Numbered from the stretch's first letter, positions 5,282 through 33,569 are shown. The stretch is DNA of 64,000 bases from Capsulimonadaceae bacterium (GCA_031292625.1 JARLGU010000019.1:310001-374000); one strand, 5' to 3'. Translations and numbers: made by a program. The notes: a model not told the origin generated them from the sequence alone.

Positions 5282-7129
5282 CTACAGCGTTACCGTAATC
5301 GTCGAGTCTTTGAGCAGTTTGGCATCAACCGTCTTCGTAACGCCCCCACGTGTCACGGCGACCTTGTAATCGCCCATGAAACCGCGCGTATGGTAATCTC
5401 CCTTGCCGTCGGTCTTGCCCGATGCGCGCGTCCACCATTGGTGGAGAACGAGGTCCTCATACGCCAGCTCGGATGGACGTTTGCTCCAGTCCAATCGGTA
5501 AAGCGGCGCGCCGTTCGCCGCCATCCAGTGACTGCCCTCCCAAAAGCCCCATTGCACGAACGCGGTTACGGCCGGCTGGCTGAACGCCGCGGTGAGGAAG
5601 TCGCGGACATAGTCGCCCTGGACCTTGTCATCGGGGATACTGGCGTCGAATTCCGTAATCTCGAGAGGCTTGCCGAATTTCGCCATCTCGTCCCATATCT
5701 GCAGCACGCGATGGATTGGAGTCAGCGGCGCGCCCATATGAGCTTGATCGGAGATGACGTCCAGCGGCGCGCCGTGGTCTAGCAGGTACTGGATGCGCTG
5801 CTCGACGAGCTTGCGCTGCTTGCCGCCATCGGGGGATTCGTTGGCGATATTGTAATCGTTGTAGCAAAGCAAGACATTCGGATCGGCCTCGCGCGCCCAC
5901 TTGTAGGCGTTCGCGAAGTTCTCCCATCCGATCCGATCCCAGAGTTCCGTATTTGTCGCGGCCTCGTTGACCACATCCCAGATGTAGACCTGTCCCTTGA
6001 AATCCGCAACAGTATCCGTCACATGCTTGTGAACGGCGGCGACCAGATCGTCGTCGCTGAGATCCTTCATGCCCTTGGGCATATAGCGAAAGGATCCCCA
6101 AACCAGGTTATGCCCACGGACGTCGATCCCGTTCTGATGCAGCCAATCGATGGCCTCGTGGACTCTCGGTCCTCTGTGCCAGTCGGCGAGGTTAGGCCAT
6201 TTCATGTCGCCTTCAAAGGTGATCGTATTGTAGTTTTGCTTGATCGTGTCACGCATTCTTATGTTGTCGGGCGTATCGACCAGCGCGACTTCGGGGTTCC
6301 TGAGAATATTTCCAAATCGAAAGGCATGCCTCGTCATTTCAACCGATACCGCTGCTCCGCTTACCGGCTTGCCGGATGCGTTGACGACACGCACGGTCAG
6401 ATCGCGCTTCCGCAGCTTTTCGATGCGATCGAGCGCGGCCTTGCGCCAAGTATCAGGATGAGCTTGGCCTTCCCAGTAGTCGACCGTCGACCCGCCGATT
6501 GACGAAAGGATCACGAGGGGACTGCCTTTCCCGAAATCGTCCACCCGCACATCCGCAATCTCCACCGTCCCGCTTTGGTACGCCAGATGAAAGCTCAGTT
6601 GGAGCGCTCCTTGCGCGTAATCCCGGCGCGCCTTGCCGATAAAGCGAACTTCCTTCCATTGCTCCGTGGTCAAGGCGCTTTGCTCCGCAACCTTCGTATA
6701 GGGATCGGTTTCCTCCTCAACGAACACGCCCACATGCTGGCCGGCCGACGACCGCAGCCAGACGCGGACGGCGATTATATCGTCCTTCTTGACCGCCTGG
6801 AGAATCGGCTGACGAAGCATCGAGTCCCACGGCTTGCCGTCCGGTGTTGCGGTAACGGCCGCGCTGAGCACGCGCGACGATCCAAAGGGCGACGCGGCAG
6901 GGGACGGGAGCACCTGGATAACCGGTGCGCTTTTTCCGGCGCCCATCCATGTCCCCTCTAGCGGGCTCGCAAAGTTACCGTTCGTAATCATTGAAATCGG
7001 ATGCTCATTCGATTGGGATCGCGCAAACCCGGTGCTTCCAATCAACGCTGCAAACGCGATGATCAACGCGATCCCGGCGCCCGTCATGCCGTACAAGCGA
7101 TCTTTAGCTGACGTATCAACTTTATTCAT
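5282..7129 (-). CDS. GH10 endo-1,4-beta-xylanase with N-terminal carbohydrate-binding domain
   Basis: 615 residues. An N-terminal hydrophobic segment (about 17-36) acts as signal or anchor, followed by a beta-sandwich like CBM4/9 (about 45-200, opening ITNGNFASPLEGTW) and the GH10 TIM barrel (about 240-560). The barrel shows all expected landmarks: RGHNLVWG, acid/base E389 in WDVVNEA, and nucleophile E493 in EITEFDAS. A short beta domain closes the protein. It should cut xylan outside the cytoplasm. It is the third gene of a LacI-pseudopilin-xylanase operon (22 bp after the pseudopilin stop), so expression is expected to respond to xylan-derived sugars. Confidence 0.93.
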   Translation of the reverse strand: MNKVDTSAKDRLYGMTGAGIALIIAFAALIGSTGFARSQSNEHPISMITNGNFASPLEGTWMGAGKSAPVIQVLPSPAASPFGSSRVLSAAVTATPDGKPWDSMLRQPILQAVKKDDIIAVRVWLRSSAGQHVGVFVEEETDPYTKVAEQSALTTEQWKEVRFIGKARRDYAQGALQLSFHLAYQSGTVEIADVRVDDFGKGSPLVILSSIGGSTVDYWEGQAHPDTWRKAALDRIEKLRKRDLTVRVVNASGKPVSGAAVSVEMTRHAFRFGNILRNPEVALVDTPDNIRMRDTIKQNYNTITFEGDMKWPNLADWHRGPRVHEAIDWLHQNGIDVRGHNLVWGSFRYMPKGMKDLSDDDLVAAVHKHVTDTVADFKGQVYIWDVVNEAATNTELWDRIGWENFANAYKWAREADPNVLLCYNDYNIANESPDGGKQRKLVEQRIQYLLDHGAPLDVISDQAHMGAPLTPIHRVLQIWDEMAKFGKPLEITEFDASIPDDKVQGDYVRDFLTAAFSQPAVTAFVQWGFWEGSHWMAANGAPLYRLDWSKRPSELAYEDLVLHQWWTRASGKTDGKGDYHTRGFMGDYKVAVTRGGVTKTVDAKLLKDSTITVTL

Positions 7130-7150
7130 GTCGTTATCAGAATCATCTCC

Positions 7151-7987
7151 TCATTGATCGTCCCACGAATTCCGCGCGTCTCCATATGGCCAGCCCGCGG
7201 GTTGCGATACGCTTACACCGAGAAACTGATCGATCTTCGACCACTTTGAGTGGCCGTCACAGTAGATCACATTCAGTCCGCCGTTGTGCCTTCCAACCGG
7301 CCGGCGGCTGTTGTTCCCGTTTGAATCGTTCGTCGAATAGTTTGTGGACGTTGACGGCACATGAGCGTCGGTAGGATTCCAGCCGCTCGGAGGCACAGCC
7401 TGATAGTCCGATGGACCGGTTTGGAAGTTCGTCCACTGAGTCGAGTCGTAGTTTACCGCCGATGAAGCCCATAGACCGGACGTCGCACTATAGTCGAGTT
7501 GAACGGCCTCGCAAATAATGAACGTCCCTGATGGATTTCCGATCTGCGAGATCGCCCGCGACGGATAGGCATAAGACGACTGCGGATAGTAACTTCCGCC
7601 CAAATTGAAATTGTATCCGTATCCGCCTCCGCCTCTGGTCAAGTTCGACGACGCGACGCCTGGGTAGCCGACGGGAAGATATTCGGTCTTGCTTGGACAA
7701 ACGAATACGCCGTAGCTTTTCGTATAGACTTGCAGATCCGTACTCCATCGCGACGACTTGACGGGGTTGGTCGAGTCATTCCAGCACATCATGGGAAGGA
7801 TTTCGTCGTAGTCCTGAACATATTGCTGGACAGCCAGACCAATCTGCTTCGCGTTCGAGAGACACGCAGTCTGCCGCGCCTTTTCACGGGCCGTTGCGAA
7901 TACAGGAAAGAGAATAGCGGCTAAAATCGCAATAATCGCAATAACAACGAGTAGCTCAATTAATGTAAATGCTTTTCCGGAGTGCAT
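7151..7987 (-). CDS. Type IV-like pseudopilin, H-X9-DG family, in xylanase operon
   Basis: I choose the ATG at 7987 (278 residues) because AAAGGA lies 7 bp upstream; an upstream ATG would add ten residues and almost reach the lacI stop. The leader is only six residues (MHSGKA) before FTLIELL, then a hydrophobic helix, [20 protein letters not shown], a QDYDE motif, and near the end H-X9-DG ([12 protein letters not shown]) followed by HSKW. Processing by a prepilin peptidase is expected. It sits between the lacI gene (19 bp gap) and the GH10 xylanase gene (22 bp gap), so it is part of the xylan regulon and not of a pilus operon. Confidence 0.9.
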
Positions 7988-8006
7988 GGCGCCATCCTTT
8001 CGTTGA

Positions 8007-9035
8007 TCAACCTTCAAGCTTCCGTACGCTCTGCCTTTCGACGATCACTGGCTTCTTAACGATCTTCACGACCGGTTCGCCCGGATGCTCGACCTGGGCG
8101 ATTACGAGGTCACACGCCTGTTTCGCCATCTCCATGAGCGGCTGAGATATCGTCGTGAGCGGCGGCTCCGACGCCGCCGTGCTTGGCAAGCCGTCAAAAC
8201 CAATCATCGAGATGTCGTCCGGGACGACGACGCCGGCATCGGAAAACCCTTGCAGCGCCCCGAGAGCGACGGTGTCTCCTCCGCAGAAGATCGCGCTAGG
8301 CCACTTCGAGCGCGGGACATCGGCCGCGAGTTTCCTGGCCCGCTCATGTCCGGACGACCAGCTATAGTCCCCTGCAAACGCTGGACATTGGGCGCTATCG
8401 AGCCCGAGTTCACCAATTGCTTGGTTGAATCCCTTCAAGCGTCCGATCGTCGTCTCGTGTTCGCTATTCCCCGCGAAAAACGCAATTCGCCGGTGTCCCT
8501 TGTCGTAGAGGTGCTGGATTGCCATGCGCGCGCCAGCCTCATCGTCAACATTCACCGACGAAACCTCAGGCTCGTCAGAACACGCCCCAAGGACCGCAAT
8601 CGGAATGCCGCGCGCCTTCACCTCGGATATGAGTGTCGTCACTTCGAGCGGCGCGACAAGCACAAGGCCGTCGCAACGGCCGTCGAAGTGCTGACGAAGG
8701 CTTCGCAGAACATTTGTCCAGCGTGTTCGGCCGAAGTAGAGAAGACTGTAGCTCTGATCCTGTACCGACCAGAACAATCCATCGACGATCGGCCTGAAGT
8801 AAAGGAAGCTCTCCGGGTACGTCTTATACGCTTCGTAAAGCACGCCAATCGTGCGCGTTTTCTTGCTAATCTTCGTTTCCTCAGCCACCGTCGGCCGGTA
8901 GCCGAGTTCGCGTATCGTCTTAAGGACTCGAAGGCGCGTTGCAATGCTAATGGGACGCGAGCTGCCATTGATCACCAGCGACACCGTCGCCGGCGAACAT
9001 TCGGCAACCTTAGCGACATCCCGAATTGTTGTCAT
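8007..9035 (-). CDS. LacI-family transcriptional repressor
   Basis: 342 residues. The N-terminal LacI helix-turn-helix ([21 protein letters not shown], residues 2-22) and hinge are followed by a periplasmic-binding-protein-like sugar sensor from about residue 62 (TIGVLYE...). The sensor has typical landmarks ([44 protein letters not shown]). First gene of the operon with a pseudopilin and a GH10 xylanase. A perfect 18-bp palindrome at 9049-9066, just downstream of the promoter, is the expected operator, implying autorepression released by a xylo-sugar. Confidence 0.92.
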
Positions 9036-11680: not shown

Positions 11681-11721
11681 TTGACGTCCTCGCCAGCATA
11701 TGATAAGATTTAAAATCTTAT
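11681..11721 (+). promoter_or_regulatory. Promoter with overlapping palindrome for GH13-like gene pair
   Basis: TTGACG (11681-11686) and TAAGAT (11704-11709) are 17 bp apart. The -10 lies inside the inverted repeat ATAAGATTT-A-AAATCTTAT (11703-11721), so a repressor binding there would occlude RNA polymerase. The ATG of the first GH13-like gene is 27 bp downstream. Which regulator binds is unknown; no regulator gene is adjacent. Confidence 0.65.
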
Positions 11722-11748
11722 TAAGAGTCTCGTCACAGGCAAACTCCC

Positions 11749-14700
11749 ATGCACTCGCTCCCACCCTCTCGCAACCGGGCATCCGTGTGTCGCACCGCCC
11801 TTATCCTGACGCTCGCCGTCACCGCTCAGTGCTTGGCGCGCGCGGCCGGCGATGCGCCCATGCTTACAGTTCGCCATTGTTGGCCAATCTTGACCGCCGG
11901 CACGTCGGAAGCAACCGCGACCGCCCCAGGCAGCCCAGTCAACGTTTCGGTCGATGATCGCCCGCTGATTACGCCGGACGTTGCGCCAACTGTTCAACCG
12001 CTTCCTGGCGGCGGGGTCGAACTCACATATACGCTTGCGAAAGGCACGCTCGTCGAGCAAATCACCCCCTTTGCCGCGATGGGCAACGGAGCCTGGTTGC
12101 AATCGATGACCTATACGAACCGAAGCGATAAGCGTCAGGACATTACGGGAGCGTCAATGCGCATCGCGCCGCGCGTCAAAGACGGCGGCATCGTCTGGAA
12201 TCCGGCGCCTTTTTGGATGGGCGAGCTTGGAGGAGGACTAACGCTGCATGTCGCTTACCGATCGGTCGAGGACGAATACTCGCTGAAGGTTTCCAGTGGC
12301 GTCGTAGAGACGCATATTACGGCTCAATGGCGTCTCGATCCGGGGCAAAGCGCGCCCATCGGAGCAATGGCATTCTGGGAAACCGCCGGCGGCGCTCAGG
12401 ATTTCCGCTCCGAAGCACAGCGCTGGTACAAGGCGATCGGCATTCGCGTCCCCGTGCCATCTCCTAACTGGCTCGCGACGGCGGTGCTCTACGAGGCGAG
12501 CGCCGGGGGGCATATCGAATCCCGGTTCAGCGACGTTGGCGGGTTCGACGCATTTGCGCATCAGCTCGATTACCTCCACGACCTGGGGGTAAATGCGATC
12601 TGGTACAACATGCCATTTTCCTTCAAGAGCGGACCGGACGGAGCGAAAGGGAACTGGAACCACTACGGCCCCCTCGACTATTCCAAAATCGATGAGATCC
12701 TCGGAGGAGCGCCCGCGTTCAAGCGGATGACCTCGCACAGCAAGGAACTCGGCATACACGTCCTGGCGGAACTCGTTCCGCACGGAGGACGTTCCGTGCA
12801 GGCGATGGCGCTCAAGCCCTGGTGGACCGGCAAGCGCGATGGCGCTCCCGTGGGCGAATGGGGCGGCGCGGATATGGATTACGCATCGCCGCCCTGGCAG
12901 GATGTCATGCGCACGGCTTGCCAGCGGCTCGCACGCGACTTCGACGTGGAAGGCGTGCGCATCGATCTTGGGAACGGCGACGGACCGAACTGGACATCGC
13001 CGGGAACCAATCACGCGTCTCTTTCGACACTGGGCGGAGCGCTCGGTATGATCCGCGCGGCGCGCGACGGACTGGCGGCCGGCGGCGCGAGAGGCCCAGT
13101 CATAATCCCCGAAAGCAACGATATCGCGGAGCATTACGCGTATACGGCGCTCGGATACGGAAGCGAGTTTACCCGCTTCTTCGAGCAAGAGCTTCCGAGC
13201 AATTTGGACGACGCCGCCGCAATGAACAAAGGCCTCCGAGACCTTCTGGAAAACGAGCGAGGAGCGCTGCCAGATGGCGCGATGAGGTTAAGGACCCTCA
13301 ACAACCACGATACAGTGATCTACAATGGCCGCGTGCATCTGCGCTTCGGCGTTGGACTTTCGCGCGCATTTCTCGGCGTCTGCCTCGCGGCCCCCGGTGT
13401 TCCGATGCTATACCAGGAACAAGAGGTCGGCGACTACGAGGCATTGCGGCGGATGCTCTGGGCGCGGCGCGCTCTTCCTGAACTCGGCGCGGGCGAACCC
13501 GATTATTTCGCGGCGACGTTCGATCCGAAGGTCTTCACCGTCGTCAGCACGCTGGACGGTTCACGGGCAATTGGACTGGTGAACCTATCCGGAACGAAGG
13601 TCGCGGGCAGAGTCGTCCTGGCACATGCGCTGAACATCGCGAACAATACGCTCGTATACGACGGCGTCTCGGATCGAAGCACCCGAGTGGTCAACGATGG
13701 ATTCGACTGGACTCTTGCCCCGTACGAAACCGCGTTGATCCGAATTGGGGCCAAGCCGGCATCAGCGACGCCCGCGGAGGTTTACGCGGGCGAGACGTAC
13801 GCGGACGCACGTGACGCTGGCAATGGCGGCTTAACGTGGCATTCGGGAAAGGTCACCCTCAATCTGCAGATGGGAGGCGACGGATGGACCGAGTCGGTAT
13901 CCGGCGAGCGGTCGACCTATTCGTCTCCCAACGGAACCGTCACCCTGCTTAGGAAGGCGCAGTCTACGCGGATCGACATCGATCTCAAGCCATCCGCGCC
14001 GACACCCCGTCTCGTGGTTCTCGGCGCGGATCGATGGCTTGTCTCGGGCCGGACAGCCATTGTAAACGATCGCGTGCTCAGACGCCATTTTCCATTTCCA
14101 GCGGGAAGCGGATATACGTGGAACCGAAAAATCGTGTCCGGATCCGCTCCCTGGGGAAAGCTCTATGACAGCGTTGCTCCCGAAGGCAGATTGTGGCAAT
14201 CGATTCTCGAGCCGCTGCATCCGGACGATCCCGGGCTCGAGTTCGCCGATCGCGCCGGAGCGGGATTATCGATTACTGGCTTGTCGACGACAGCCCGAAA
14301 TATCGTGCTGACCGACTGCACGGACGAGCCGGAGAGCGGGCCGTTTCGCTTGGAGACGCGCTTCTACGATATCGACACTGACTTGAACGCCAACGTCCGC
14401 GCGCTCGGCCTGGGAAGCCAATGGCTCATGAGCCGCGAGGCTTTGCCGCCCGTAACGCCTGCCGCGCTGCATGTCTCGTTCATGATTTCGAACAGCGAGG
14501 GCGATTGGCGCGCACGCTGGAGCGCTCCGCGCTTACCCGTGCAGCGAACGCCTCACGTCGCCGAAACCGATATCGGCCCCCGATTCGTACATGCGGTCCA
14601 ATCCACGTTCCTTCCTGAGCCCGGACAAGTCGCGTTCGACGGCTTCCCGCCGGTCGCGGGCGTGTATCAAATCGAACTCGATCTGCGCCGCAGTGAGGCG

Positions 14701-14931
14701 TCTGCAACGAGCCACGAGCTCGAAAGCGCCTATACGGTACGCGTCGACGGCATCGAACAGCCCCTGCAGTGGTCGCAAAGAGGATCGGGGGCCATGGGCA
14801 ATGCCTATTTCGCGACGGCCCTTACGCCTCCGATCGACCTTTCCGGCAAGACACACTCAATCTCGATCACGACGGCTCGACCGTGGTGCGCCGTCCATGA
14901 TCACTTCAAGCTAGTGAAGGCGAGCCAATGA
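11749..14931 (+). CDS. Secreted alpha-amylase-superfamily (GH13-like) glycoside hydrolase, paralogue 1
   Basis: 1060 residues. A signal peptide (about 1-35) precedes an N-terminal beta-sandwich (about 36-235), then an alpha-amylase-type barrel (about 238-610). The barrel shows the GH13 conserved regions: nucleophile D406 in GVRIDLGNG, likely acid E455 in IIPESND, and D521 in LNNHD. Region I is unusual (AELVPHGG in place of DxVxNH). After the barrel come a beta domain and a long C-terminal part (to 1060) with further beta-rich modules. Substrate is probably an alpha-glucan or related oligosaccharide, but the odd region I makes this uncertain. It overlaps the start of its paralogue by 4 bp (ATGA). 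Confidence 0.8.
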   Translation: MHSLPPSRNRASVCRTALILTLAVTAQCLARAAGDAPMLTVRHCWPILTAGTSEATATAPGSPVNVSVDDRPLITPDVAPTVQPLPGGGVELTYTLAKGTLVEQITPFAAMGNGAWLQSMTYTNRSDKRQDITGASMRIAPRVKDGGIVWNPAPFWMGELGGGLTLHVAYRSVEDEYSLKVSSGVVETHITAQWRLDPGQSAPIGAMAFWETAGGAQDFRSEAQRWYKAIGIRVPVPSPNWLATAVLYEASAGGHIESRFSDVGGFDAFAHQLDYLHDLGVNAIWYNMPFSFKSGPDGAKGNWNHYGPLDYSKIDEILGGAPAFKRMTSHSKELGIHVLAELVPHGGRSVQAMALKPWWTGKRDGAPVGEWGGADMDYASPPWQDVMRTACQRLARDFDVEGVRIDLGNGDGPNWTSPGTNHASLSTLGGALGMIRAARDGLAAGGARGPVIIPESNDIAEHYAYTALGYGSEFTRFFEQELPSNLDDAAAMNKGLRDLLENERGALPDGAMRLRTLNNHDTVIYNGRVHLRFGVGLSRAFLGVCLAAPGVPMLYQEQEVGDYEALRRMLWARRALPELGAGEPDYFAATFDPKVFTVVSTLDGSRAIGLVNLSGTKVAGRVVLAHALNIANNTLVYDGVSDRSTRVVNDGFDWTLAPYETALIRIGAKPASATPAEVYAGETYADARDAGNGGLTWHSGKVTLNLQMGGDGWTESVSGERSTYSSPNGTVTLLRKAQSTRIDIDLKPSAPTPRLVVLGADRWLVSGRTAIVNDRVLRRHFPFPAGSGYTWNRKIVSGSAPWGKLYDSVAPEGRLWQSILEPLHPDDPGLEFADRAGAGLSITGLSTTARNIVLTDCTDEPESGPFRLETRFYDIDTDLNANVRALGLGSQWLMSREALPPVTPAALHVSFMISNSEGDWRARWSAPRLPVQRTPHVAETDIGPRFVHAVQSTFLPEPGQVAFDGFPPVAGVYQIELDLRRSEASATSHELESAYTVRVDGIEQPLQWSQRGSGAMGNAYFATALTPPIDLSGKTHSISITTARPWCAVHDHFKLVKASQ

Positions 14932-17900
14932 AACACCAGTCTGGATCTCAGCGTCTCGCCTCTCTTTCCTGCGCAGCGCTTGTGATTGGCGGGCTTGCGG
15001 CGGCGCATCAGCCGGCAACGGCGGGCGCGCCCGCCGCCAACCTGAGCGTCCGCGACGGCTGGCCGATCGTCAGCGCAGCAGGCGTCGATGTGACGACATC
15101 CGCCAAGGGCCGTCCGGTGGACGTAACGGTAGACGGCAAATCCGTGCTTACTGGCGACGCGCCTTTCGCAGTCGTGCAAAATCCTGACGGCGAGATCGAC
15201 ATCACATATGCCGTCAGCCAAGGAACGCTTGTCGAGAAGTATGTCCCTTTCGCCGCAATGGGCCCCGGCGCATGGCTCCGATCGACAACCTATACGAATA
15301 CGACCAGCGGGACGGAGTATCTAACCGGCGCAGTCATGCGCATCGCGCCGAATGCGCAATCCGGCAATGCCCCCTGGAATCCAGGGCCATTCTGGATGGT
15401 CGAAGCGTCAGGAAACCAGACGCTGCACATTGCGTACAAATCGGCTGACGATTTCTATTCGATTAAAGGCGAAGATGGCTTCGTCGAGACCAGCATTGGC
15501 GCGCAATGGCGCCTTGCGGCCGGTCAAAGCGCGCAAATCGGCAGCGAGGGTCTTTGGGTACATCCTGGAAACCGCGACGACTTTCGCCCGGAAGCCCAAC
15601 GCTGGTACGAGGCCATCGGCATCCATGTGCCTCGCCCCCACCCCGACTGGCTTGCAAACGCCGTGCTGTACGAAGCAAGCGCCGGCGGGCATGTCGAATC
15701 GCGGTTCAGCGATGTAGGCGGGTTCGACGCGTTTGCGCATCAGCTCGACTATCTCGCGGACCTTGGCGTCAACGCAATCTGGTACAACATGCCGTTTACG
15801 TTCAAGTCGCCCCCGAATGGCGAGAAAGGCGGCTGGAACCATTACGATCCACGCGACTACAGCAAGATTGATGGCATTCTCGGTGGCCCGGACGCGTTCC
15901 ACCGCCTGACTCATGCGAGTCGTGAGCGAGGCATGCATGTCATCGCCGAGCTCGTCCCGCACGGAGGCCGCTCCGTTCAGGCGGAAGCCCTGAAAGCCTG
16001 GTGGACGGGAGGACGCGACGGAAAGCCCAATGGCGGCTGGGGCGGCGCGGATATGGACTACTCTTCGCCGCCCTGGCAGGCGGTGATGTGCAACGCGTGC
16101 ACGTATCTGGCCCACGATTTCGGCGTGGAAGGCGTTCGCATCGACCTCGGCGACGGCGACGGCGTCAACTGGACATCGCCGCTGACGAACCATGCCTCGT
16201 TTTCCAATCTCGGCGGCTCGATCGGAATGCTGAACGCCGCGCGGAAGGGCCTTCTTGCCGGCGGCGTGGGCGAGGGTGGACGCGTCCCGATCCTGATCCC
16301 CGAAAGCCCGGATCGTCCCGAGTATTACGCGATGACGCCGGTCGGTTACGGGGACAAGCTCACCATCCTCCTGCATGAATATGTCCAGAGCAACCCGAAC
16401 GACGCGGCGGGCAATTGCGAACACATTCGCGCCGTTCTAGAGGATGAACAGGGCTCGCTTCCAGCCGGAGCGATCAGCCTGCGAACCCTGGGAAACCACG
16501 ACACGACCCTCGAGCACGGCCGCGTCCAACAGCGCTTCGGCGCGGGGCTGGCCCGGGCGCTCTTTGGCGTCTGCCTTGCGGTTCCAGGCTTGCCGATGCT
16601 CTATCAAGAAGAAGAAAGCGGTTCCTTTGAGGCGCTTCGCAAAATGATTTGGGCCAGACGCCGCATCCCTGAGCTTGGATCTGGCACGGCGGATTACGAA
16701 GCCGTCTCGTTCGCGCCGGAGGTCTTCACGGTCGTCCGTTCGGCCGGCGCATCGAGGGCTATCGGGCTGGTCAATCTATCCGGCAACCCGGTTTCCGGCA
16801 AGGTTACGTTGGCCGCAAGCACTCCGGTTCCGGACGGCGCAATGGTCTTCGACGGCGTATCCGGCAAGAGCGCACGCGTCAACGGCAATGCGTTCACTTG
16901 GACGATCGGCCCCTACGAAACAGCGTTGCTGCGCGTCGGAAAGCATCCGGACGGCAACGTCCCCGCAATGCGCTTCGCTGGCGAACCAACGAGCAACGAG
17001 ATGCTTACGACAAGCAACATGCCCGTGTGGCGCAACGGCAAAATGGCAATCGCTCTTAGCCCTGGAACGGCAGCGTGGACAAAGCGCGTGGAGGGCGCGA
17101 CGACGACTTACGATTCGCCATCGGGACGAATAACAGTCCGAAACGAAGGGATAGCAGCGCACGTCGAGTTGGAATACGGCAAAGGAGCCCCCATTCCTTC
17201 GCTAGTCGTTCACAATGCCGACAGCTGGCTTGTCTCAGGACGAACCGCCATTCTTGACGATCGGGTCATTCGCAGGCACTTTCCATTTCCCGCATCGAGC
17301 GGGTACTCTTGGAAGCGAAATATCATCTGGGGATCCGCGCCATGGGGAAGCCTCTACCACGGCGTCGCCCCATGCGGACGGCTTTGGCAGTCTCTGCTTG
17401 AGCCGCTCCATCCTGACGAGCCCGATCTTGCCTTCGTTGACGGCGCAGGAACCGGGTTTGAGCTTTCGAGTGTGCACTGCGACGCCCAGAACACGGTGCT
17501 CACAGATGCAACAGATGAGCAGTCATCGGCTCCGTACCATCTGGATCTGCGATTCTACGCGGCCGATCCGGACCTCAGCCAGATGGTCCAGGTGTTCGGC
17601 CTCGGCAAACAATGGCAAATGGACGCGCCTCCTGCCGCAGTCGCCGCAAACAGCCTTCACGCGTCGTTCGAGATCACGCCAACGTCCGGCAATCCGGCGG
17701 CCCGTTGGGCGTCGCCCCGCCTGCCGGTCGAACGCGGCGGCATGCGCGAAACAATAAGCGGCAACGATTATCATCAAGGCTTTAACGGCGTCTTCTTTCC
17801 GAAAGGCGGCAAGGTCACGTGGGCCGGTTTCGCCGCCGCGCCTGGCGTATACAGGATCGAGTTTGAACTGAGGCATAGCGAAGCATCTGCAACGGGAACG

Positions 17901-18119
17901 GACCTGGATGCCGCCTACGCCGTCACCGTCGATGGGGCGACGCAGCCGCTCACGTGGACGAAGCGAGGCACGGCGACCTATGGCAACGCCTACTTCGGCC
18001 TTGCAACGACTCGACCAATCGACCTGAAGGGCAAGGCGCACACGGTCGAAATCACTTGCACGAAGCCCTGGACCGCAGTGCGCGAACACTACCGGTTGAT
18101 CGAGGGGACAGAAAAATGA
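14928..18119 (+). CDS. Secreted alpha-amylase-superfamily (GH13-like) glycoside hydrolase, paralogue 2
   Basis: 1063 residues, collinear with the upstream gene over its whole length and clearly a tandem duplicate. Signal peptide about 1-32. Catalytic landmarks sit at nearly the same positions: D406 in GVRIDLGDG, E459 in LIPESPD, D525 in LGNHD. Region I is again AELVPHGG. The shared block NAVLYEASAGGHVESRFSDVGG opening the barrel is nearly identical in both. Translation is coupled by the ATGA overlap, so both proteins are made together. Retention of all acidic residues in both copies suggests both are active, perhaps on different linkages or chain lengths. The CAZy subfamily cannot be assigned by eye. 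Confidence 0.8.
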   Translation: MKHQSGSQRLASLSCAALVIGGLAAAHQPATAGAPAANLSVRDGWPIVSAAGVDVTTSAKGRPVDVTVDGKSVLTGDAPFAVVQNPDGEIDITYAVSQGTLVEKYVPFAAMGPGAWLRSTTYTNTTSGTEYLTGAVMRIAPNAQSGNAPWNPGPFWMVEASGNQTLHIAYKSADDFYSIKGEDGFVETSIGAQWRLAAGQSAQIGSEGLWVHPGNRDDFRPEAQRWYEAIGIHVPRPHPDWLANAVLYEASAGGHVESRFSDVGGFDAFAHQLDYLADLGVNAIWYNMPFTFKSPPNGEKGGWNHYDPRDYSKIDGILGGPDAFHRLTHASRERGMHVIAELVPHGGRSVQAEALKAWWTGGRDGKPNGGWGGADMDYSSPPWQAVMCNACTYLAHDFGVEGVRIDLGDGDGVNWTSPLTNHASFSNLGGSIGMLNAARKGLLAGGVGEGGRVPILIPESPDRPEYYAMTPVGYGDKLTILLHEYVQSNPNDAAGNCEHIRAVLEDEQGSLPAGAISLRTLGNHDTTLEHGRVQQRFGAGLARALFGVCLAVPGLPMLYQEEESGSFEALRKMIWARRRIPELGSGTADYEAVSFAPEVFTVVRSAGASRAIGLVNLSGNPVSGKVTLAASTPVPDGAMVFDGVSGKSARVNGNAFTWTIGPYETALLRVGKHPDGNVPAMRFAGEPTSNEMLTTSNMPVWRNGKMAIALSPGTAAWTKRVEGATTTYDSPSGRITVRNEGIAAHVELEYGKGAPIPSLVVHNADSWLVSGRTAILDDRVIRRHFPFPASSGYSWKRNIIWGSAPWGSLYHGVAPCGRLWQSLLEPLHPDEPDLAFVDGAGTGFELSSVHCDAQNTVLTDATDEQSSAPYHLDLRFYAADPDLSQMVQVFGLGKQWQMDAPPAAVAANSLHASFEITPTSGNPAARWASPRLPVERGGMRETISGNDYHQGFNGVFFPKGGKVTWAGFAAAPGVYRIEFELRHSEASATGTDLDAAYAVTVDGATQPLTWTKRGTATYGNAYFGLATTRPIDLKGKAHTVEITCTKPWTAVREHYRLIEGTEK

Positions 18120-18248: not shown

Positions 18249-20111
18249 ATGACGAACACGAAACACCTGTATCTGCTCATCTTATTCGTCGCCACCCTCG
18301 GCGCGGCGTATGCCGACGAAGCGCCCCCAGCCTTCCTTGCAGTAAACAAGGTACGGTTTACCGCCGTCAAAGGACACGAGCAAGATGTGCTCGGCGCGAA
18401 AATCCTCGGCTCGAACAAATCCGCGTTCGATGGATTCGTTGAGCTAGGCACGATCACGGGGATTCCCCCGGCAGACCAAGAATCAGGAGACTTGACGCTA
18501 TCCAACAAGACGCCCTACCGATGGATCAAATATCTTGCCGCCCCTGGGACTTGGGGACGAATCTACGATATCGAATACTTTGCGGGTAACCAAAGGCTCA
18601 AGGCCGTCAATAGCTACGGCAACTTTGAGCAGGGTAAATGGCATCAAAGCTATGCGGCCGACGACCAATTCTCGGTCATCGATATTGGCGACGCGGCGAC
18701 GGGACCTTCTCCGGGATTCTCTCCGTCCCCTACCGAGTCGACGGGACCTATCAAGGTCGAGATCCAGAACAAGTTGCCAGGATCAGTTATTCGCTACACG
18801 CTCGACGGCACGGAGCCGACGCAAGAGAACAGCCGCATCTATACCGGACCGCTCACGATCTCCAGGACGACGACGATCGAGGCATCGTCCTTCGTCGACG
18901 GCCATGCGCCAACTCCCGCAGTCTGGGCAACCTATATCATCGGTTCTCCCGCACACATGACGACGTTTCACCTGGGCAACAGCCTGACCGGCGTCACGAC
19001 GCGCTTCGACAGCCAGGCGCGCACCGCCGGTGCGATCCATATTTCCAACCGGTACATGCTCGGCGCTGCGTTTACGAAGACCTTGTGGAACGCCGCGATG
19101 CTTCCCATTGGCGATCCCACGGACAAACAGGCCTGGGCCGATGTCTACAACACCCGGATTGCGCTCAACTTGACGTATACACGCAAGAACATCGAAGACA
19201 CAGCGGCCGCGTGGAAGGCGCTTTGGCCAACGGTCACCCATATCGACGCTCTCACTCTCCAGCCGCGTGACTTCGACATTGCGGAAGAGGCTGACTACGA
19301 CAATCGCTTCCTGTCTCTGGCGCAACAGAAGTCCCCCGACCTGCAGCCGTGGCTCTATATCGAATGGGTAGAGCGCAGCCGCAAGAACCGCCCCACGGAT
19401 TCGGGAAAGGAACCTACGACCGAAATGACCAAGGTCTATCCTGCCCTTAGCTGGGAAGAATCGATGTCGGCAATGCTCCTGTACGGCGAGGACCTGAAAG
19501 ACAAGGTCAACGAGACTTACAAAGGCGCAAAACCGATCCGCATGATTCCCGCCGGCATCGCGCTCGGACAGCTGCACCACATGATCGACATCGGGCTGGT
19601 TCCCGGTTTCGCAAAGGACGATTTCTACGGAAAGCTCTTCAAAGACGGCGTCCATCTCAACGCGAACGGTTCCTTCCTCGTCGACTGCATGTTTTACTCG
19701 GCCTTCTACGGCGAGTCGCCGGAAGGCAAGTTTCTGCCGGTGCTGACGGAGCTCACCGCACGACAGGCTACCATCATGCAAAAGCTTGCATGGGACACGA
19801 TGACGAATTATCCGTTCAGCGGATTTTACAAGGAGGGGACAAAAATTGCCGGCAAGCCCCAATTCTCCCCCTCCGCCGCGCCGATCAAAGACGTCACCAC
19901 GGTTTCACTCGCCAGCGCGACGCCCGGAGCGTGGTTTCGTTATACGCTCGACGGCACAACGCCGACGCGAACGAAAGGTTACGTGTACTGCGGGGCGATC
20001 AGCGCGCGCCCAGGGATGACGATCAAAGCGATCGCCTACAAGAGCGGCATGGCCGATAGCCCGGTCGCGGAAATCACATACGCCGACGGCAGCGGCGCGC
20101 CTCGCCCGTAG
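18249..20111 (+). CDS. Secreted SGNH-hydrolase-like protein with chitobiase C-terminal-type domains
   Basis: 620 residues with a signal peptide (about 1-22, LLILFVATLGAAYA). The N-terminal part looks like a discoidin-type beta-sandwich (about 28-155). Two chitobiase/beta-hexosaminidase C-terminal-type modules flank a central domain: one near 165-235 (SVIRYTLDGTEPTQ) and one near 545-615 (AWFRYTLDGTTPT). The central domain opens with HLGNSLTG (S245) and closes with D466-G-V-H469, the Ser and DxxH positions of SGNH/GDSL esterases. It may remove acyl groups from polysaccharide. SD GAAGGA precedes the ATG. Located 129 bp after the GH13-like pair. Confidence 0.7.
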   Translation: MTNTKHLYLLILFVATLGAAYADEAPPAFLAVNKVRFTAVKGHEQDVLGAKILGSNKSAFDGFVELGTITGIPPADQESGDLTLSNKTPYRWIKYLAAPGTWGRIYDIEYFAGNQRLKAVNSYGNFEQGKWHQSYAADDQFSVIDIGDAATGPSPGFSPSPTESTGPIKVEIQNKLPGSVIRYTLDGTEPTQENSRIYTGPLTISRTTTIEASSFVDGHAPTPAVWATYIIGSPAHMTTFHLGNSLTGVTTRFDSQARTAGAIHISNRYMLGAAFTKTLWNAAMLPIGDPTDKQAWADVYNTRIALNLTYTRKNIEDTAAAWKALWPTVTHIDALTLQPRDFDIAEEADYDNRFLSLAQQKSPDLQPWLYIEWVERSRKNRPTDSGKEPTTEMTKVYPALSWEESMSAMLLYGEDLKDKVNETYKGAKPIRMIPAGIALGQLHHMIDIGLVPGFAKDDFYGKLFKDGVHLNANGSFLVDCMFYSAFYGESPEGKFLPVLTELTARQATIMQKLAWDTMTNYPFSGFYKEGTKIAGKPQFSPSAAPIKDVTTVSLASATPGAWFRYTLDGTTPTRTKGYVYCGAISARPGMTIKAIAYKSGMADSPVAEITYADGSGAPRP

Positions 20112-26295: not shown

Positions 26296-27741
26296 TTACT
26301 TCCCGTACGCCTCGAGAACCTTGTGAATTGCATCGAGCCTATCCGAGCCGTGCAGCAGGGTTGGACAAATCCACCCGCCTTCGTCGAATTCGTTCCAAGC
26401 GTAAATCAGTACGAGGCGCGAGGGATCGGCGCCAGGGTTCGCATCGATCCAATCCATCGCCTGCTTGACGTGCGCCCCCACTTCGCCGGGCGTCGGTTCC
26501 TGCGCCCAGTGGTCGGCATAGTACCGCGCCCACGGGACCGGGTTGACTAAGCGCGGGCGCGGATCGGCGCCCGCCGTCACATTGGGGACGACATCGAGCC
26601 CAAACATCTTGTCACGGTTCCAGCGTTCTTCCGAATTGCTCATCACGGCCGTAAACGGCGCGCCGCCGATTGCACCGGTGACGTAGTGGCTTATCGCATC
26701 GTAATGAAACCCCGTTGACGATGCCGAGGCCTTTTTGTCGAGCGCGAGATTAGCGCTCCCCGCCGCGGAGTTGTAGATCTGAAACTCGCAGATCTCTGGT
26801 TGTTGCGTTCCGGAGAGAAAGCAGAGGCGCGCCCTTGTCCCGGTGACGGGCGCAAACGTAACGGAAGTTGGCGCTTTTCGCGTAGCGATGGTCGTCCCGG
26901 CAAACGCAACTTGCCACTGCGAACCGTCCCATACGCGTATTTCATACGCGCTTGTATGCCCATCGAGCTCGGCCAGAACCGCCTTGTCGAATGTGGTATT
27001 CGCGCCGAAATCAACTTGCAGCCACTCGCCCGAATAAGCCCCCGTCGCCGCCTGCCAGTAAGACCCCATGTCGCCGTCGAAAGCAGCCCCAGCCGTGTGG
27101 CCGCCCCCCTTGCCCGTCTCGCACTTGATGACGTATGGATCGCCAAGGCCCGCCGCCCGCGATAGCCGCGCCAGCGACGCGAAATCCTCGGGGGTGTACT
27201 TGTCCGAGAACAGATAGAAGACGGGGCGGTTGTCGAGAACCTTCAGATAATCCGGATCCTTGAAATACTTCTCGACCATCGCAGGAAACAGATTGCTCGG
27301 GTACGTGTCCTGCATCACGAAGCAGTACTTCACGAGGCTCTTGATGGAACTCGAAAGATAGAGACGGCGGGCGATGGCTAGCCCGCTCTCGTCGTTGTAC
27401 CAATCGAACGCCCAATAGTCGATGCCCGCATCGTGCGCGTACCGAATCTCCTGGTCCATGACATCCTGCGTCAGTTCGCGCGCCTCGACGGAATCAGGCC
27501 CCGTTTCCTTACCGAAAAACGGGATGCGGTCGTGGAATTGATGCGGTCCAAGCGCTTTCTCGACCGGTAATCCGACGCCCGGGTTCGTGTCGCCCACCCA
27601 GGCATCCCAGCGGATCGCGCCAACGAGCGGGCGAGGCTTCTTTGCCGCGCTTTGCCCTGGCGCTGCCGAGGCAATTACGCTGCTGATCATCGCCCACGTA
27701 ACAATGCCAAGCACAACAAGCCAATATTTTTCATGTCGCAT
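26296..27741 (-). CDS. Secreted GH99-like/WbsX-related protein with inserted discoidin domain
   Basis: The ATG at 27741 (481 residues) has GGATGGAG upstream and begins a signal peptide (about 1-26). The N-terminal barrel half (GAIRWDAW, AGIDYWAFDWYND) and the C-terminal half (VVPNVTAGADPRPR, YAWNEFDEGGW) match the glycan-active WbsX/GH99-like fold. Between them, about residues 200-340, lies an F5/8-type-C (discoidin) module (GEWLQVDFGANTTFDKAVL, ARLCFLSGTQQPEICEFQIY). The discoidin module probably binds sugar. Last gene of the leftward polysaccharide cluster. Confidence 0.78.
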   Translation of the reverse strand: MRHEKYWLVVLGIVTWAMISSVIASAAPGQSAAKKPRPLVGAIRWDAWVGDTNPGVGLPVEKALGPHQFHDRIPFFGKETGPDSVEARELTQDVMDQEIRYAHDAGIDYWAFDWYNDESGLAIARRLYLSSSIKSLVKYCFVMQDTYPSNLFPAMVEKYFKDPDYLKVLDNRPVFYLFSDKYTPEDFASLARLSRAAGLGDPYVIKCETGKGGGHTAGAAFDGDMGSYWQAATGAYSGEWLQVDFGANTTFDKAVLAELDGHTSAYEIRVWDGSQWQVAFAGTTIATRKAPTSVTFAPVTGTRARLCFLSGTQQPEICEFQIYNSAAGSANLALDKKASASSTGFHYDAISHYVTGAIGGAPFTAVMSNSEERWNRDKMFGLDVVPNVTAGADPRPRLVNPVPWARYYADHWAQEPTPGEVGAHVKQAMDWIDANPGADPSRLVLIYAWNEFDEGGWICPTLLHGSDRLDAIHKVLEAYGK

Positions 27742-27831
27742 ATATGTTCTCCATCCTACCGACTGGCATAAAGCGCCTTCAAAACCACATAAACGATAAG
27801 AGCGCCTCATTGCCCCGCGACGAGAGCGCTT

Positions 27832-29673
27832 TCACGGCGTGGTCTCGACCAGTTTGCCGTACAGACCATCTTCGACCTTGTTTCCGGAAAGCTGAGGCGG
27901 CGCGCACCCCTTAAGATCGAATACGGGGTCGCCGGATGTGCCGGCCTGGTTCTCGGCACGCCCGGTCACCTTGTTGTTCTTGATCGTCAAACCCGCGACA
28001 TGACGCGCAACCACGGCAGGCGCGCTGCGATTGATAAAACGATTGCCGGCGACGGTAAAGTTGTTGTAGGTCGTGGCCTGGATGCCGCCGTCCGCGTTGC
28101 CGAGCAAGATAGCGGGCGCGCGGTATTCGGACCCTACGAACTCGTTATCCCGAATCGTTAACCCTTCGGCGATCGGACCTTCGCGCCAACTGGGATCGAA
28201 ACCGACCACGACAGACGCCCCCATTAGCCACATCATCGCCTTGTGGAAACCGGGATCGGTAGAGACGACCGGCGGATTCAGCTCGCTAAGGCGTTTGACA
28301 AAGCGATTGTTCTCGACAACGCCGCCGATCGATTGCAGCAGGACGTCCCGGCCGCGATGAGTGCCGAAGGTGTTGCCTCGTATCATGCAGTCTGGATTGC
28401 TTTCGTTCAGATTGAAGAACTGGTCTCCCGCGTTTCTGGTCGCGGCAAATTCGACATCGGGAGCATCTTGCAGGAAGACAACGTGGCAGCCATCCTTCTG
28501 AGTGTCGTCCACGCTCTTGACAACATATTTACCGATCACATGCCTCGTCACCGGACGGACTTGCTCAATCGTATCGCCTACCCTTGGCGGATAAGAGAAC
28601 CGGTTCCAGCCCCGCCGGAAGACCAGCGCGTTTTGAGCGGTGCGCGAAATCGCGCCAATTGCCGACGCATGCAAATTGATCGTGTCGTCTCCGTTGCCCG
28701 CCAGAGAGCACCCTTCGATCACGATCCGCCGGTTGCACACGCCGTGAATGCCATCGGAATCGGCTGAAAGGACACGTCTGCTTCCCGGTTTGATTTCCAT
28801 GATGCAGTCGACAATACGAACCTCATCGTTGCTGACGGGAACGAAAGCCATGCCGGGCGCGGCGTGCACCGTGATTCGGCGCGCTTCAACATATTTGTTG
28901 TTCGCCATGTTCAGCGCGTGGCCGACATAGGCAAAGGACGATGCCATAAACAGGTCGCCGGCTTTCAGGCCCGCAATATGGATTCCGTCGCGCCGCGTAA
29001 ACGTCGGCTTCTGGGTCACGGCCAGTTTCCACCTGTGCGGCCCGGTCTGCTCGGCGCGCTCCAGATCAACGCCTTCGATTCCCCAAATGGGCGAACCGTC
29101 GCTTGCGCGCTGATAGTTGAAGCTGTAGAACTTTTTCCCCGGCTGCCCCAAAACGGGATCGCCAATCGACATCATGTCCGGATCAGCCGGTGCATCCTCA
29201 ACCTCGATAAAACCGCCGTCAGGGTCGACGGATACGATCGTTCCGGTTACCTGAGGCACGGGATCATAGTCGATCGTTAGGTCCTGCGCAACGACGTGAA
29301 GGCAGTTCTCCAGGTCGATCGCGCCTGCCCACGGATCGGCGATAACGAGCGTCGTTTTCGGCCTGCCCAAGAGCCTAAGGTCCTTTGCGCCATCGACCAT
29401 GATCGCGTAGCGCTCCCACCACACGTGATCCGGAATCGACTTGATCGTGTAAACGCCGCCGCCAAAGACAACGTCCGCCGGCTGGCCGGACGCAACCGCG
29501 GCTGCAATCGCCTTGCGAATTGCCGGTCCCGAATCCGCGTCCGTGTTCGGCGTCGCGCCAAAATCCGCGACACTGAAGGCCTTCCGGGTCAAGGGGGAAG
29601 CATGGGCAAACGACGCATCAAGCGCCAGGGCGGCGAAACCCAAGAGAGCCGCGACAACGAATATTCGCGTCAT
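27832..29673 (-). CDS. Secreted right-handed beta-helix protein, GH110-like
   Basis: Start at 29673 (613 residues) has AAAGGA upstream and a signal peptide (about 1-25). The mature protein opens FSVADFGATPNTDADSGPAIRKAI, the usual entry of pectinase-fold glycosidases, and then shows beta-helix rungs. SADSDGIHGVCNRRIVIEGC followed by GDDTINLH resembles the active-site rungs of GH110 alpha-galactosidases. The end again has rung repeats (NEFVGSEYRAPAILLGN, NRFINRSAPAVVARH). Hydrolysis of galactosyl or galacturonosyl links is plausible but not certain. It follows the GH106-like gene on the same strand. Confidence 0.72.
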   Translation of the reverse strand: MTRIFVVAALLGFAALALDASFAHASPLTRKAFSVADFGATPNTDADSGPAIRKAIAAAVASGQPADVVFGGGVYTIKSIPDHVWWERYAIMVDGAKDLRLLGRPKTTLVIADPWAGAIDLENCLHVVAQDLTIDYDPVPQVTGTIVSVDPDGGFIEVEDAPADPDMMSIGDPVLGQPGKKFYSFNYQRASDGSPIWGIEGVDLERAEQTGPHRWKLAVTQKPTFTRRDGIHIAGLKAGDLFMASSFAYVGHALNMANNKYVEARRITVHAAPGMAFVPVSNDEVRIVDCIMEIKPGSRRVLSADSDGIHGVCNRRIVIEGCSLAGNGDDTINLHASAIGAISRTAQNALVFRRGWNRFSYPPRVGDTIEQVRPVTRHVIGKYVVKSVDDTQKDGCHVVFLQDAPDVEFAATRNAGDQFFNLNESNPDCMIRGNTFGTHRGRDVLLQSIGGVVENNRFVKRLSELNPPVVSTDPGFHKAMMWLMGASVVVGFDPSWREGPIAEGLTIRDNEFVGSEYRAPAILLGNADGGIQATTYNNFTVAGNRFINRSAPAVVARHVAGLTIKNNKVTGRAENQAGTSGDPVFDLKGCAPPQLSGNKVEDGLYGKLVETTP

Positions 29674-29714
29674 ACGATAGTGTCCTTTTGCATAGGTTTG
29701 AGTTATTTTGCAGT

Positions 29715-29784
29715 TAGGGCGCACTATCCATTGCGATCGAGGGACAGTGCGTGCGCTCGTTGGCGCACGCACTGTCGCGCCCTA
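29715..29784 (-). other. Nested inverted repeats after the GH106-like stop codon
   Basis: GACAGTGCGTGCGC (29743-29756) and its exact complement (29763-29776) form a 14-bp stem with a 6-nt loop. Outside it TAGGGCGC (29715-29722) and GCGCCCTA (29777-29784) can pair as a second 8-bp stem, leaving a 20-nt bulge. The structure starts 2 bp after the stop of the GH106-like gene and ends 41 bp before the next start. It may be a terminator, an mRNA end protector or a remnant of a mobile repeat. Confidence 0.65.
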
Positions 29785-29786
29785 CT

Positions 29787-32700
29787 TTACAGATCGATCG
29801 GATCCGCGCCTATTACGGTAACAGGTCCAAAGAGCCCGGATGGAATCAGCGGATCGTCGGCGCTGTAGAACTGCTGTGTCGTAAACGTAACGCGCTGCTC
29901 CGCCGTCAGACTCGCGTCGCCGATCAGCCGGTTCACCCACGTGTCGGTCACTTTGATCTGCAACGCGTTATCGCCCGGCTTAAGAATGCCCGTAACATCG
30001 ATCCGGTACGGCGGAGACCAGAGGCAACCCAGGTCGCGGCCGTTCAGGGTCACGTTCGCCAGGCTTTCCAGATCGCCCAGATCGAGATACGCCACGCGGC
30101 CGGCCTTAAACCAGTCGTTGGGAACGTTGATCGTTTTGTCGTATTCAGCCGTGCCCGAGTAGTATTTGATGCCGGGTTCCGGCCGCTTGGTCCAATCGGT
30201 AAGCGAGTCAAACGTCGCGGTTTGCGGGCCGCCCCAGCGTGGGTCGAAGTGGAGCGTCCATGGTCCGTCAACGGCGATCGATGCCGGCGTGGACGCAACA
30301 TCCTTCGACATCGCCTTCCCAGCCGCGTCCTTCACGGTGAACAACCCCGCTGCCCACGGAATGAGACGAGCTTGTCCCTTCGAACTTTGGACAACGGCGA
30401 ACTTCGCCTTGCCGGGTTGGTACGGCGGAAGCGTGACCATATCGTTCTCGCCGACGCTTATCGTGCCCGGCACTCCGCCGACCGTGTACTCGACCGTCGC
30501 CGATTTCACGATCATCGGCGCCGGATCCGATCCGACCAGATCGTTGCCAATTGCAGCAACGAGCTGGTTCTTGTCGATCAGGCTGGAGAGCTTCGCCGTG
30601 ATGTCGACGACGCCGCCGTGCCCCGCGATGTCGCCGTAGATCGCCTTAGTGATCACGAGTTGCTTGCTCTCAGGCTCCGCGTCCGCCGACGATTTCATGG
30701 CGACCGAGACCAGATGGTTCTTCGGCGCGGGCTTGCGGAACACAACGAACAGGCTCTGGCCGGGTGCAAGCTGCAAAGGAATAACCGTACCGCCGGAACC
30801 ATCCGCGCTCCACACAGGGGCATCGGCAAGCGTCCCTTTTTGCGGATCCCAAATTTCGGGAAGCTTCCCAGTCACCCGGAAGGTTGCGTTCGTGGATACG
30901 GCTCCGGAAACCTGGTTGGATAGGAAATAGGCATCAGCCGTATTGATGCGCCGGTGCAGGTAAGGTATGGACGCGGCGATGGCGTCGTACGAGAAATCCG
31001 GCGCGATGCGCAGGTCGTCCAGAGCCAGGCTAATCTTCTTGCTGTCGCCGGTCCAGTAAACGCAGCCCTTGCCTAAGTTGTTCTTGATCGTAGCCTGTCC
31101 GTCGATCTTGCCCCAGAGCTCACCGGCAATCTTCGCGACCTCGGTCTCACTCTCCGGATAGCCGGTCAGGCCAAGAGAGTGCTCGGGACGCGGTCCGAAA
31201 ACGATTGCCCCGGCATGAACAAGCGCATCGATTTTCTTGAGGACCGGCAAGGAGATGCTGGTCGAGTTCGGCAGCGCAAGCATTCGATAGCGCTGGCCGC
31301 TCGGCACGCTCAAGATGCCGTTCTCGACGGTCAGGCTTTCCATGAGCAGATCCGTATCGATCTGATCGGCTGCGTATCCGCGAGGCGCTTGAAGCGCCAT
31401 GCGGCCGTTCCCCTCCGCTCCTTCATAAGCGAGAATGTCGCCGATGAAGCGTCCCTGCTGAAGCAACGATTCACAGCGAGCGAGGTAACGGAAGTAATCC
31501 TTCCCGGTTTCGTACCAGGTGTTGTTCCGGTTCTGGAACATGCCGAACGCCCAAGTCATTCCAGGCGCGCGGCCGTCGGTCCACGGCTGATGAGCGCCAG
31601 AGTGGAAATAGTAGCGATTGACGCCGGCCGCCAGAATGCCGTCGCCCTCGCGCTTTAGGTTCCAGGGCGTCGCGCTGAAATACTTTCCGCCCGCCGTAAA
31701 CGACTCCGCGCCGACAAGCGTATGACCATAAAGGTGCGCCGCGGATGCGACCTTGCGGGCAAGACCGACATCGCCCTGACCAGGGTACCAAAACTCGCTC
31801 ATCGGCATGTCGACGAGCCCGGAGGATCTGAGCGTATCGAAGGCGCCGTCGCCATACGCTTCCACCTGCGCTTTCAGCCCGTGCTGATGGAGGAGGACGG
31901 CAAAGTATCCCCAATAGTTGGTGTCCCAGAGTTCCGAAATTGTGCGCGTAAAGTCGAACTCAAAGCGCCGGGTCTGCTCCAAGGATGCAACCGGCCGGCC
32001 GGTCAATGTGACCAGCCAAGGAGTGATCGCATACCCCGTACGCGCCTTAAATTCGCCAGGAAAGTTGTCGGTCCAGTTTTGCGGTCCGACCTCGTAGCTG
32101 TCGATCAACGACCACTGAAGCGGTCTTCCCGGCACGGTCGCGCCGGTGGCCATGACACGGTCGAAAAGTCCGGCGAAGTGATGCTCCAACGCGATTTTGC
32201 TAAGCTTATCGCATTCGAGACCGATCCCATACTTGGACGCCGGATGGTTGACCGCTCCGATGGCCGTGTAGCCGAAACGAACGACGGTCCAATTTCCGGC
32301 AGGCGCAGTCCAGGCCAGCGTGCCGTCAGACTTCATCGACGACGAAATATCGACGACGTTCGAGACTGGCACGGCAGCCTCTTTCGTCGAGTCGGGACCG
32401 AACAAGTTGAACATTGCGAGTTCTATGCCGTTGAGACGTTCCGGCTGTTCGATACCGTTGATACGTCCCGGCTTGACCTTGTAGCTGATACGAAAGTATC
32501 GCGCGGTCACCGGTGCGAATGTCTTGCTGCAGATCCAGTCGACGCCCTCTCCCGGCACGCCGAACATCGCGGCCTTTTTCCATGTGACGCCATCATCCGA
32601 TGACTCCAGTTTCATGGTCCCGCCAGGATTGTGCGGCTTATAAGAGAAGCGGATGGCGTCCGCCGTAAAGGAACCAGCGCAGTCGATGAGCAAGCCCGGG

Positions 32701-33365: not shown

Positions 33366-33385
33366 TTTCAATCGATCCCCTTTGA

Positions 33386-33407
33386 GCGGATCGCGAACGC
33401 GATCCGC
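33386..33407. promoter_or_regulatory. Perfect 22-bp GC-rich inverted repeat upstream of GH106-like gene
   Basis: GCGGATCGCG (33386-33395) and CGCGATCCGC (33398-33407) are exact complements around AA. It lies 20 bp upstream of the ATG at 33365, next to the ribosome-binding site. It could be a repressor operator, or in RNA a hairpin affecting translation or terminating the upstream transcript. Confidence 0.6.
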
Positions 33408-33569
33408 ACCACCATCCAATAACGTGTGCCATTCGTTGAGCAGACACAGCATTTTGCTGCAAGAATTCACGAACGACACCAAATACCCATTGGATAGCGG
33501 CGGGCGGTCTCCCTGCCTGTCAGTCGAAAAACATTTCACGGCGGGGCCATGGAGCGTGCATCTACCAGA

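Follow-up and report, generated by a model that had tools for sequence, protein, structure and literature searches.

A tandem pair of GH13-like proteins from a Capsulimonadaceae bacterium lacks the conserved histidine of region I

The gene pair and its region I

The DNA analysed here is a 64 000-nucleotide stretch from a Capsulimonadaceae bacterium (GCA_031292625.1, JARLGU010000019.1:310001–374000), referred to below as the window. Between positions 11749 and 18119 it carries two consecutive genes that encode large, apparently secreted proteins (P0001 and P0002) related to the α-amylase family GH13. In both proteins conserved sequence region I (CSR-I) departs from the usual GH13 pattern. The features concerned are as follows.

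11749–14931, + strand: gene 1, encoding P0001, a GH13-like, apparently secreted protein of 1060 amino acids (D406 putative nucleophile, E455 putative acid/base, D521 third Asp)
14928–18119, + strand: gene 2, encoding P0002, a GH13-like, apparently secreted protein of 1063 amino acids (D406 putative nucleophile, E459 putative acid/base, D525 third Asp)
12766–12789, + strand: CSR-I of gene 1, AELVPHGG, residues 340–347 (E341 at the CSR-I Asp position, H345 at the Asn position, G346 at the His position)
15945–15968, + strand: CSR-I of gene 2, AELVPHGG, residues 340–347

The two open reading frames overlap by the sequence ATGA (14928–14931), and the proteins are collinear over their full length, with 582 of 1060 residues identical (55%) and 10 gaps. 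This is in agreement with the original prediction, made from the sequence of the window, which had described the sizes, the end-to-end likeness and the overlap and had also placed the three catalytic carboxylates correctly. Judged by eye, both N-termini resemble Sec signal sequences, and both proteins are thus apparently secreted.

The same prediction held that AELVPHGG replaces the region I motif DxVxNH. The octapeptide is indeed present in both proteins, but its register had to be corrected. In an ungapped HMMER alignment with AmyB of Thermotoga neapolitana (PDB entry 4GKL), VLAELVPHGGR pairs with VLMDMVLNHAA, and the ungapped stretch covers the helix before β3 as well as the β3 strand itself. 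The canonical D-x-V-x-N-H thus becomes E341-L-V-P-H345-G346, in which Asp is replaced by Glu, Asn by His and the subsite −1 His by Gly. We considered the visible 'PH' as a retained Asn-His and rejected this, since in the ungapped alignment the His position is occupied by Gly, and since ten family members read YG, without any His. E341, H345 and G346 pair without gaps with the Asp, Asn and His of AmyB, and the conserved CSR-I His is therefore lost; CSR-I of this family does not end in Asn-His, as it does in GH13. In known GH13 enzymes this histidine touches O6 of the glucose in subsite −1. Across the whole of GH13, few positions are as strongly conserved as this one (PMC11239784).

A third paralogue (C31) lies elsewhere in the same genome, and whole-genome searches recovered relatives across Armatimonadota and in Verrucomicrobiota, Victivallales among them; of 68 Hydrogenedentota genomes, 15 contain relatives. 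Residue counts were made on 71 aligned members from Armatimonadota, Verrucomicrobiota/Victivallales and Hydrogenedentota. The triad characteristic of GH13, Asp406 in CSR-II, Glu459 in CSR-III and Asp525 in CSR-IV (P0002 numbering), is invariant in all 71, as are Arg404, His524 and Tyr306. The CSR-I His position is Gly in 70 of the 71 and Ala in the remaining one, which is the third paralogue. More variation is seen at the Asn position (His 58, Tyr 10, Ser 2, Trp 1) and at the Asp position (Asp 51, Glu 18, Gly 2), the latter being Glu in all three copies of the host genome. Four other GH13 proteins served as controls, one from the same genome, two from a Victivallales genome and one from a Verrucomicrobiota genome, and all four keep His at this position. 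A maximum-likelihood tree, obtained by a quick search without bootstrap, splits the family from these controls with a Shimodaira–Hasegawa-like approximate likelihood-ratio test (SH-aLRT) support of 99; a divergent Hydrogenedentota sequence (L110) falls on the family side in the tree and was excluded from the residue counts. The change in region I is a fixed trait of the family.

Two local variants of the motif were also observed. An Armatimonadota subgroup (L026, L028–L030, L032 and L033) has DLVVYG or DLVTYG as CSR-I, with Asn replaced by Tyr and His by Gly. In the Victivallales genome G292, neighbouring GH13-type proteins (L069, L070 and L071) have FHC or YHC in CSR-I, in which the Asn is replaced and the His is kept.

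Fold and relation to known families

An AlphaFold2 model of P0002 was calculated from an input alignment of 24 family members (predicted local distance difference test score, pLDDT, 84.7; predicted template-modelling score 0.86). It divides the protein as follows.

15033–15641, + strand: N-terminal mutarotase-like β-supersandwich, gene 2 residues 36–238, assigned by fold comparison only
15645–16703, + strand: GH13-like (β/α)8 barrel, gene 2, about residues 240–592, assigned from profile, model and Foldseek
16995–18116, + strand: C-terminal β modules, gene 2, about residues 690–1063, assigned from the model

Structure prediction, which had been proposed as a check on the original prediction, thus yields a GH13 barrel behind a mutarotase-like supersandwich, and the long C-terminal β modules that it had described are recovered as well, residues from about 595 to 1063 being mostly strands. 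Among solved structures the family profile matches AmyB best (E = 1.6e-52), and the modelled barrel superposes on AmyB with a TM-score of 0.79, normalised to AmyB, in Foldseek. GH36 enzymes appear in the same Foldseek search as well, and their alignments are longer. Folded alone, residues 36–238 reach a pLDDT of 92.3 and resemble the supersandwich found at the N-terminus of enzymes of GH36, GH65 and GH94 (best E 8.9e-07, TM-score 0.67, root-mean-square deviation about 6 Å). Sequence searches with this domain gave nothing convincing in Pfam and only a short, weak match in the PDB (4fbr, E 0.005, 29 residues). Because no sequence similarity to GH36, GH65 or GH94 was found, the likeness of the modelled domain to these enzymes is at the level of the fold only. 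The last C-terminal module has no significant sequence match in the PDB.

The barrel fold and the sequence similarity that characterise GH13 are both present, as judged from Pfam, the AmyB profile and AlphaFold/Foldseek. The Pfam model PF00128 (Alpha-amylase) scores above its cutoff, with a best match that covers only about 85 residues. None of the NCBIfam GH13 models comes near its cutoff, the best score being 50.6 bits against cutoffs of about 500 and more. In a tblastn search of plasmids, the ten matches listed had only 22–26% identity and spanned about one third of the query; six of them carry an annotation as alpha-amylase family proteins, and the other four carry none. Pfam, NCBIfam, the PDB and the open-access literature yielded no characterised GH13 subfamily that shares this region I, and in the last of these we found neither a description of a GH13 group that lacks the CSR-I His while retaining an intact triad nor a GH13 enzyme with a mutarotase-like N-terminal domain. 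The partial Pfam match, the NCBIfam scores far below cutoff and the separation of a 71-member family from the controls support the suggestion that these proteins form a GH13 subfamily not yet described, or a family related to GH13.

Comparison with known systems sharpens this placement. AmyB, a maltogenic amylase of subfamily GH13_48, shares the best profile match, the barrel fold, the triad and an ungapped CSR-I with our proteins. It differs in that GH13_48 keeps NH at the end of CSR-I (PMC11239784) where P0001 and P0002 have HG, and our family adds the mutarotase-like N-terminal domain and the long C-terminal β modules. The GH70 glucansucrases of clan GH-H keep six of the seven invariant GH13 residues and have replaced the same CSR-I His, in their case by Gln, while remaining active on glucosyl donors (PMC4919382). 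Their barrel is circularly permuted, whereas the present family has Gly and the normal GH13 order of motifs. In the BmaN1 group (GH13_45) the CSR-I Asp is replaced by Glu (PMC5347038), as in the three copies of the host, but the triad is altered in the BmaN1 homologues and intact here. Gly in place of the CSR-I His is described for neither GH70 nor the BmaN1 group. With GH36, GH65 and GH94 the family shares a mutarotase-like β-supersandwich ahead of the catalytic domain; its barrel, however, is of the GH13 type (Asp on β4, Glu on β5, Asp on β7), neither GH36-type nor (α/α)6. The catalytic Asp pair of GH36 is absent, all 71 members having the GH13 pattern.

We tentatively entertain a further step, namely that these proteins form a separate GH family beside GH13 in clan GH-H, with a mutarotase-like N-terminal domain and with a subsite −1 that has given up the O6-contacting His so that a sugar different from plain glucose can bind. 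Such a family would extend across Armatimonadota, Hydrogenedentota and Verrucomicrobiota and would have a dedicated operator in the host.

Promoter, paralogues and neighbouring genes

Three further features flank the gene pair.

11681–11709, + strand: promoter-like site TTGACG-N17-TAAGAT upstream of gene 1
11701–11723, no strand assigned: palindromic operator-like site TGATAAGATTTAAAATCTTATTA over the −10 box
18249–20111, + strand: next gene, 620 amino acids, with two chitobiase-C/Fn3-associated domains and SGNH-like motifs (GNSLT and DGVHL; SGNH by motif only)

The pattern of the palindrome occurs at three places in the 5.77 Mb genome, while a reversed control pattern and the shuffled window gave no match. 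These places are the gene 1 operon, the third paralogue, where it stands beside a divergent LacI-type gene, and a putatively secreted DUF4380-like gene. The −35 box, the 17 bp spacer and TAAGAT are kept at all three, and the leader AGGCAAACTCCC before the ATG is common to gene 1 and the DUF4380-like gene. Genes 1 and 2 are probably expressed from one promoter with its −10 box under the palindrome. With the palindrome also in front of the third paralogue and of the DUF4380-like gene, these genes resemble a small regulon that responds to sugar. We found no support for a larger set of operator sites, as two extra matches to a relaxed pattern (C6 and C37) lack the promoter geometry. The 620-residue gene, which follows gene 2 on the same strand after 129 bp, possibly belongs to the same operon; no terminator-like site was found in this gap.

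The DUF4380-like gene (L115:8757–9821, − strand, G000:C43) encodes 355 residues and lies 26 bp behind its palindrome. Its match to DUF4380 is weak and below the Pfam cutoff. By eye the protein appears mutarotase-like, and a PDB sequence search with it gave nothing significant.

In the tree the three paralogues of the host form one clade (support 100) within a group of ten Hydrogenedentota and two Victivallales sequences (support 99), and branch apart from the other Armatimonadota members. This branching suggests horizontal transfer into the Armatimonadota host, and the simplest reading would be a single acquisition and two later duplications. A recent duplication did not give rise to the tandem pair, because P0001 branches together with the distant third paralogue (support 99) and not with the adjacent P0002.

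Elsewhere the window encodes a GH10 protein, a β-helix protein with a weak GH141 match, a GH106 protein and a pectate-lyase-like protein. At 26299–33539 (− strand) an F5/8-type and WbsX-like protein, a pectate-lyase-like β-helix protein and a 1250-residue GH106 α-L-rhamnosidase are found together. Glucuronyl-esterase-like and GH4 genes lie several kilobases from the third paralogue. In genome G043 a relative is flanked by a GH5 gene on one side and a complete Opp-type ABC transporter on the other, all on one strand, and the Hydrogenedentota relatives examined share no common neighbourhood. Together this context points to the use of plant or microbial polysaccharides and does not name a substrate.

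The host genome contains in addition a recurrent cassette, on one strand, of a LacI-type regulator, a DUF1559/N-methylation pseudopilin and a secreted CAZyme-like (carbohydrate-active enzyme) gene. Examples in genome G000 are at 5282–9035 (− strand) of the window, L040:11839–16062 and L115:13654–17929. In this genome LacI-type sensor domains and DUF1559 matches each number at least 150; among the matches listed, a DUF1559 gene lies no more than 400 bp downstream in 61 of 150 LacI genes, where 1.1 would be expected from random placement.

Possible function and its alternatives

We consider it fairly probable that P0001 and P0002 are active, secreted retaining α-glycosidases or transglycosidases in which recognition at subsite −1 has changed, and that they belong to a GH13-like subfamily or sister family not described so far. 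From the intact triad together with the subsite −1 Tyr, the Arg and the CSR-IV His, the GH13 retaining mechanism is expected. D406 would be the nucleophile of the double displacement, E455/E459 the acid/base and D521/D525 the transition-state stabiliser, while Tyr306, Arg404 and His520/524 would line subsite −1. The edge of the pocket near C5 and C6 is probably remodelled, because the CSR-I His is replaced by Gly and the preceding Asn mostly by His or Tyr. Since the O6 contact is lost, a substrate with an altered C6 is plausible. The sugar might carry a modified C6 hydroxyl or lack it, or a glucose might be held differently, and the sugar might come from a polysaccharide of plants or microbes and not from ordinary starch.

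Some observations weigh against this proposal: no activity is known for any member of the family, the neighbouring genes differ between genomes, and GH70 has lost the same His yet uses glucose (PMC4919382), so that the sugar need not change. The last point also speaks for the idea that P0001 and P0002 are ordinary secreted α-glucan hydrolases acting on starch, glycogen, pullulan or dextran, with glucose in subsite −1 and the Gly offset by H345 or another residue. The nearest solved relatives, which are α-amylases and neopullulanases, and the retention of every other subsite −1 residue checked are in line with this. We nevertheless regard it as rather unlikely, as the H345 position varies across the family, which makes it a poor general substitute, and as the genes around the pair in the window are of xylan, rhamnose and pectin type and not of starch type.

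The GH70 precedent (PMC4919382) could also be read as a sign that the proteins are mainly transglycosidases, GH70- or GH77-like, that build or rearrange an exopolysaccharide and are not hydrolases. Their large multidomain architecture and apparent secretion would fit such a role, but in genome G043 the relative has a GH5 gene and an uptake transporter as neighbours, an arrangement that speaks for breakdown, and we think a mainly transglycosidase role improbable. Least credible of all is that amylase activity has been lost and the proteins are carbohydrate-binding or scaffold proteins without catalytic function. One canonical active-site residue is indeed missing and no activity is known, but complete invariance of the triad, the Arg, the CSR-IV His and the Tyr across 71 proteins of three phyla would be unexpected in a pseudoenzyme.

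The 71 proteins from three phyla that drop the histidine and keep all catalytic residues amount to a natural experiment on the determinants of sugar specificity at subsite −1. The shared palindrome offers a way to trace the regulator and the inducer sugar, and the family may represent a new α-glycosidase activity in uncultured bacteria.
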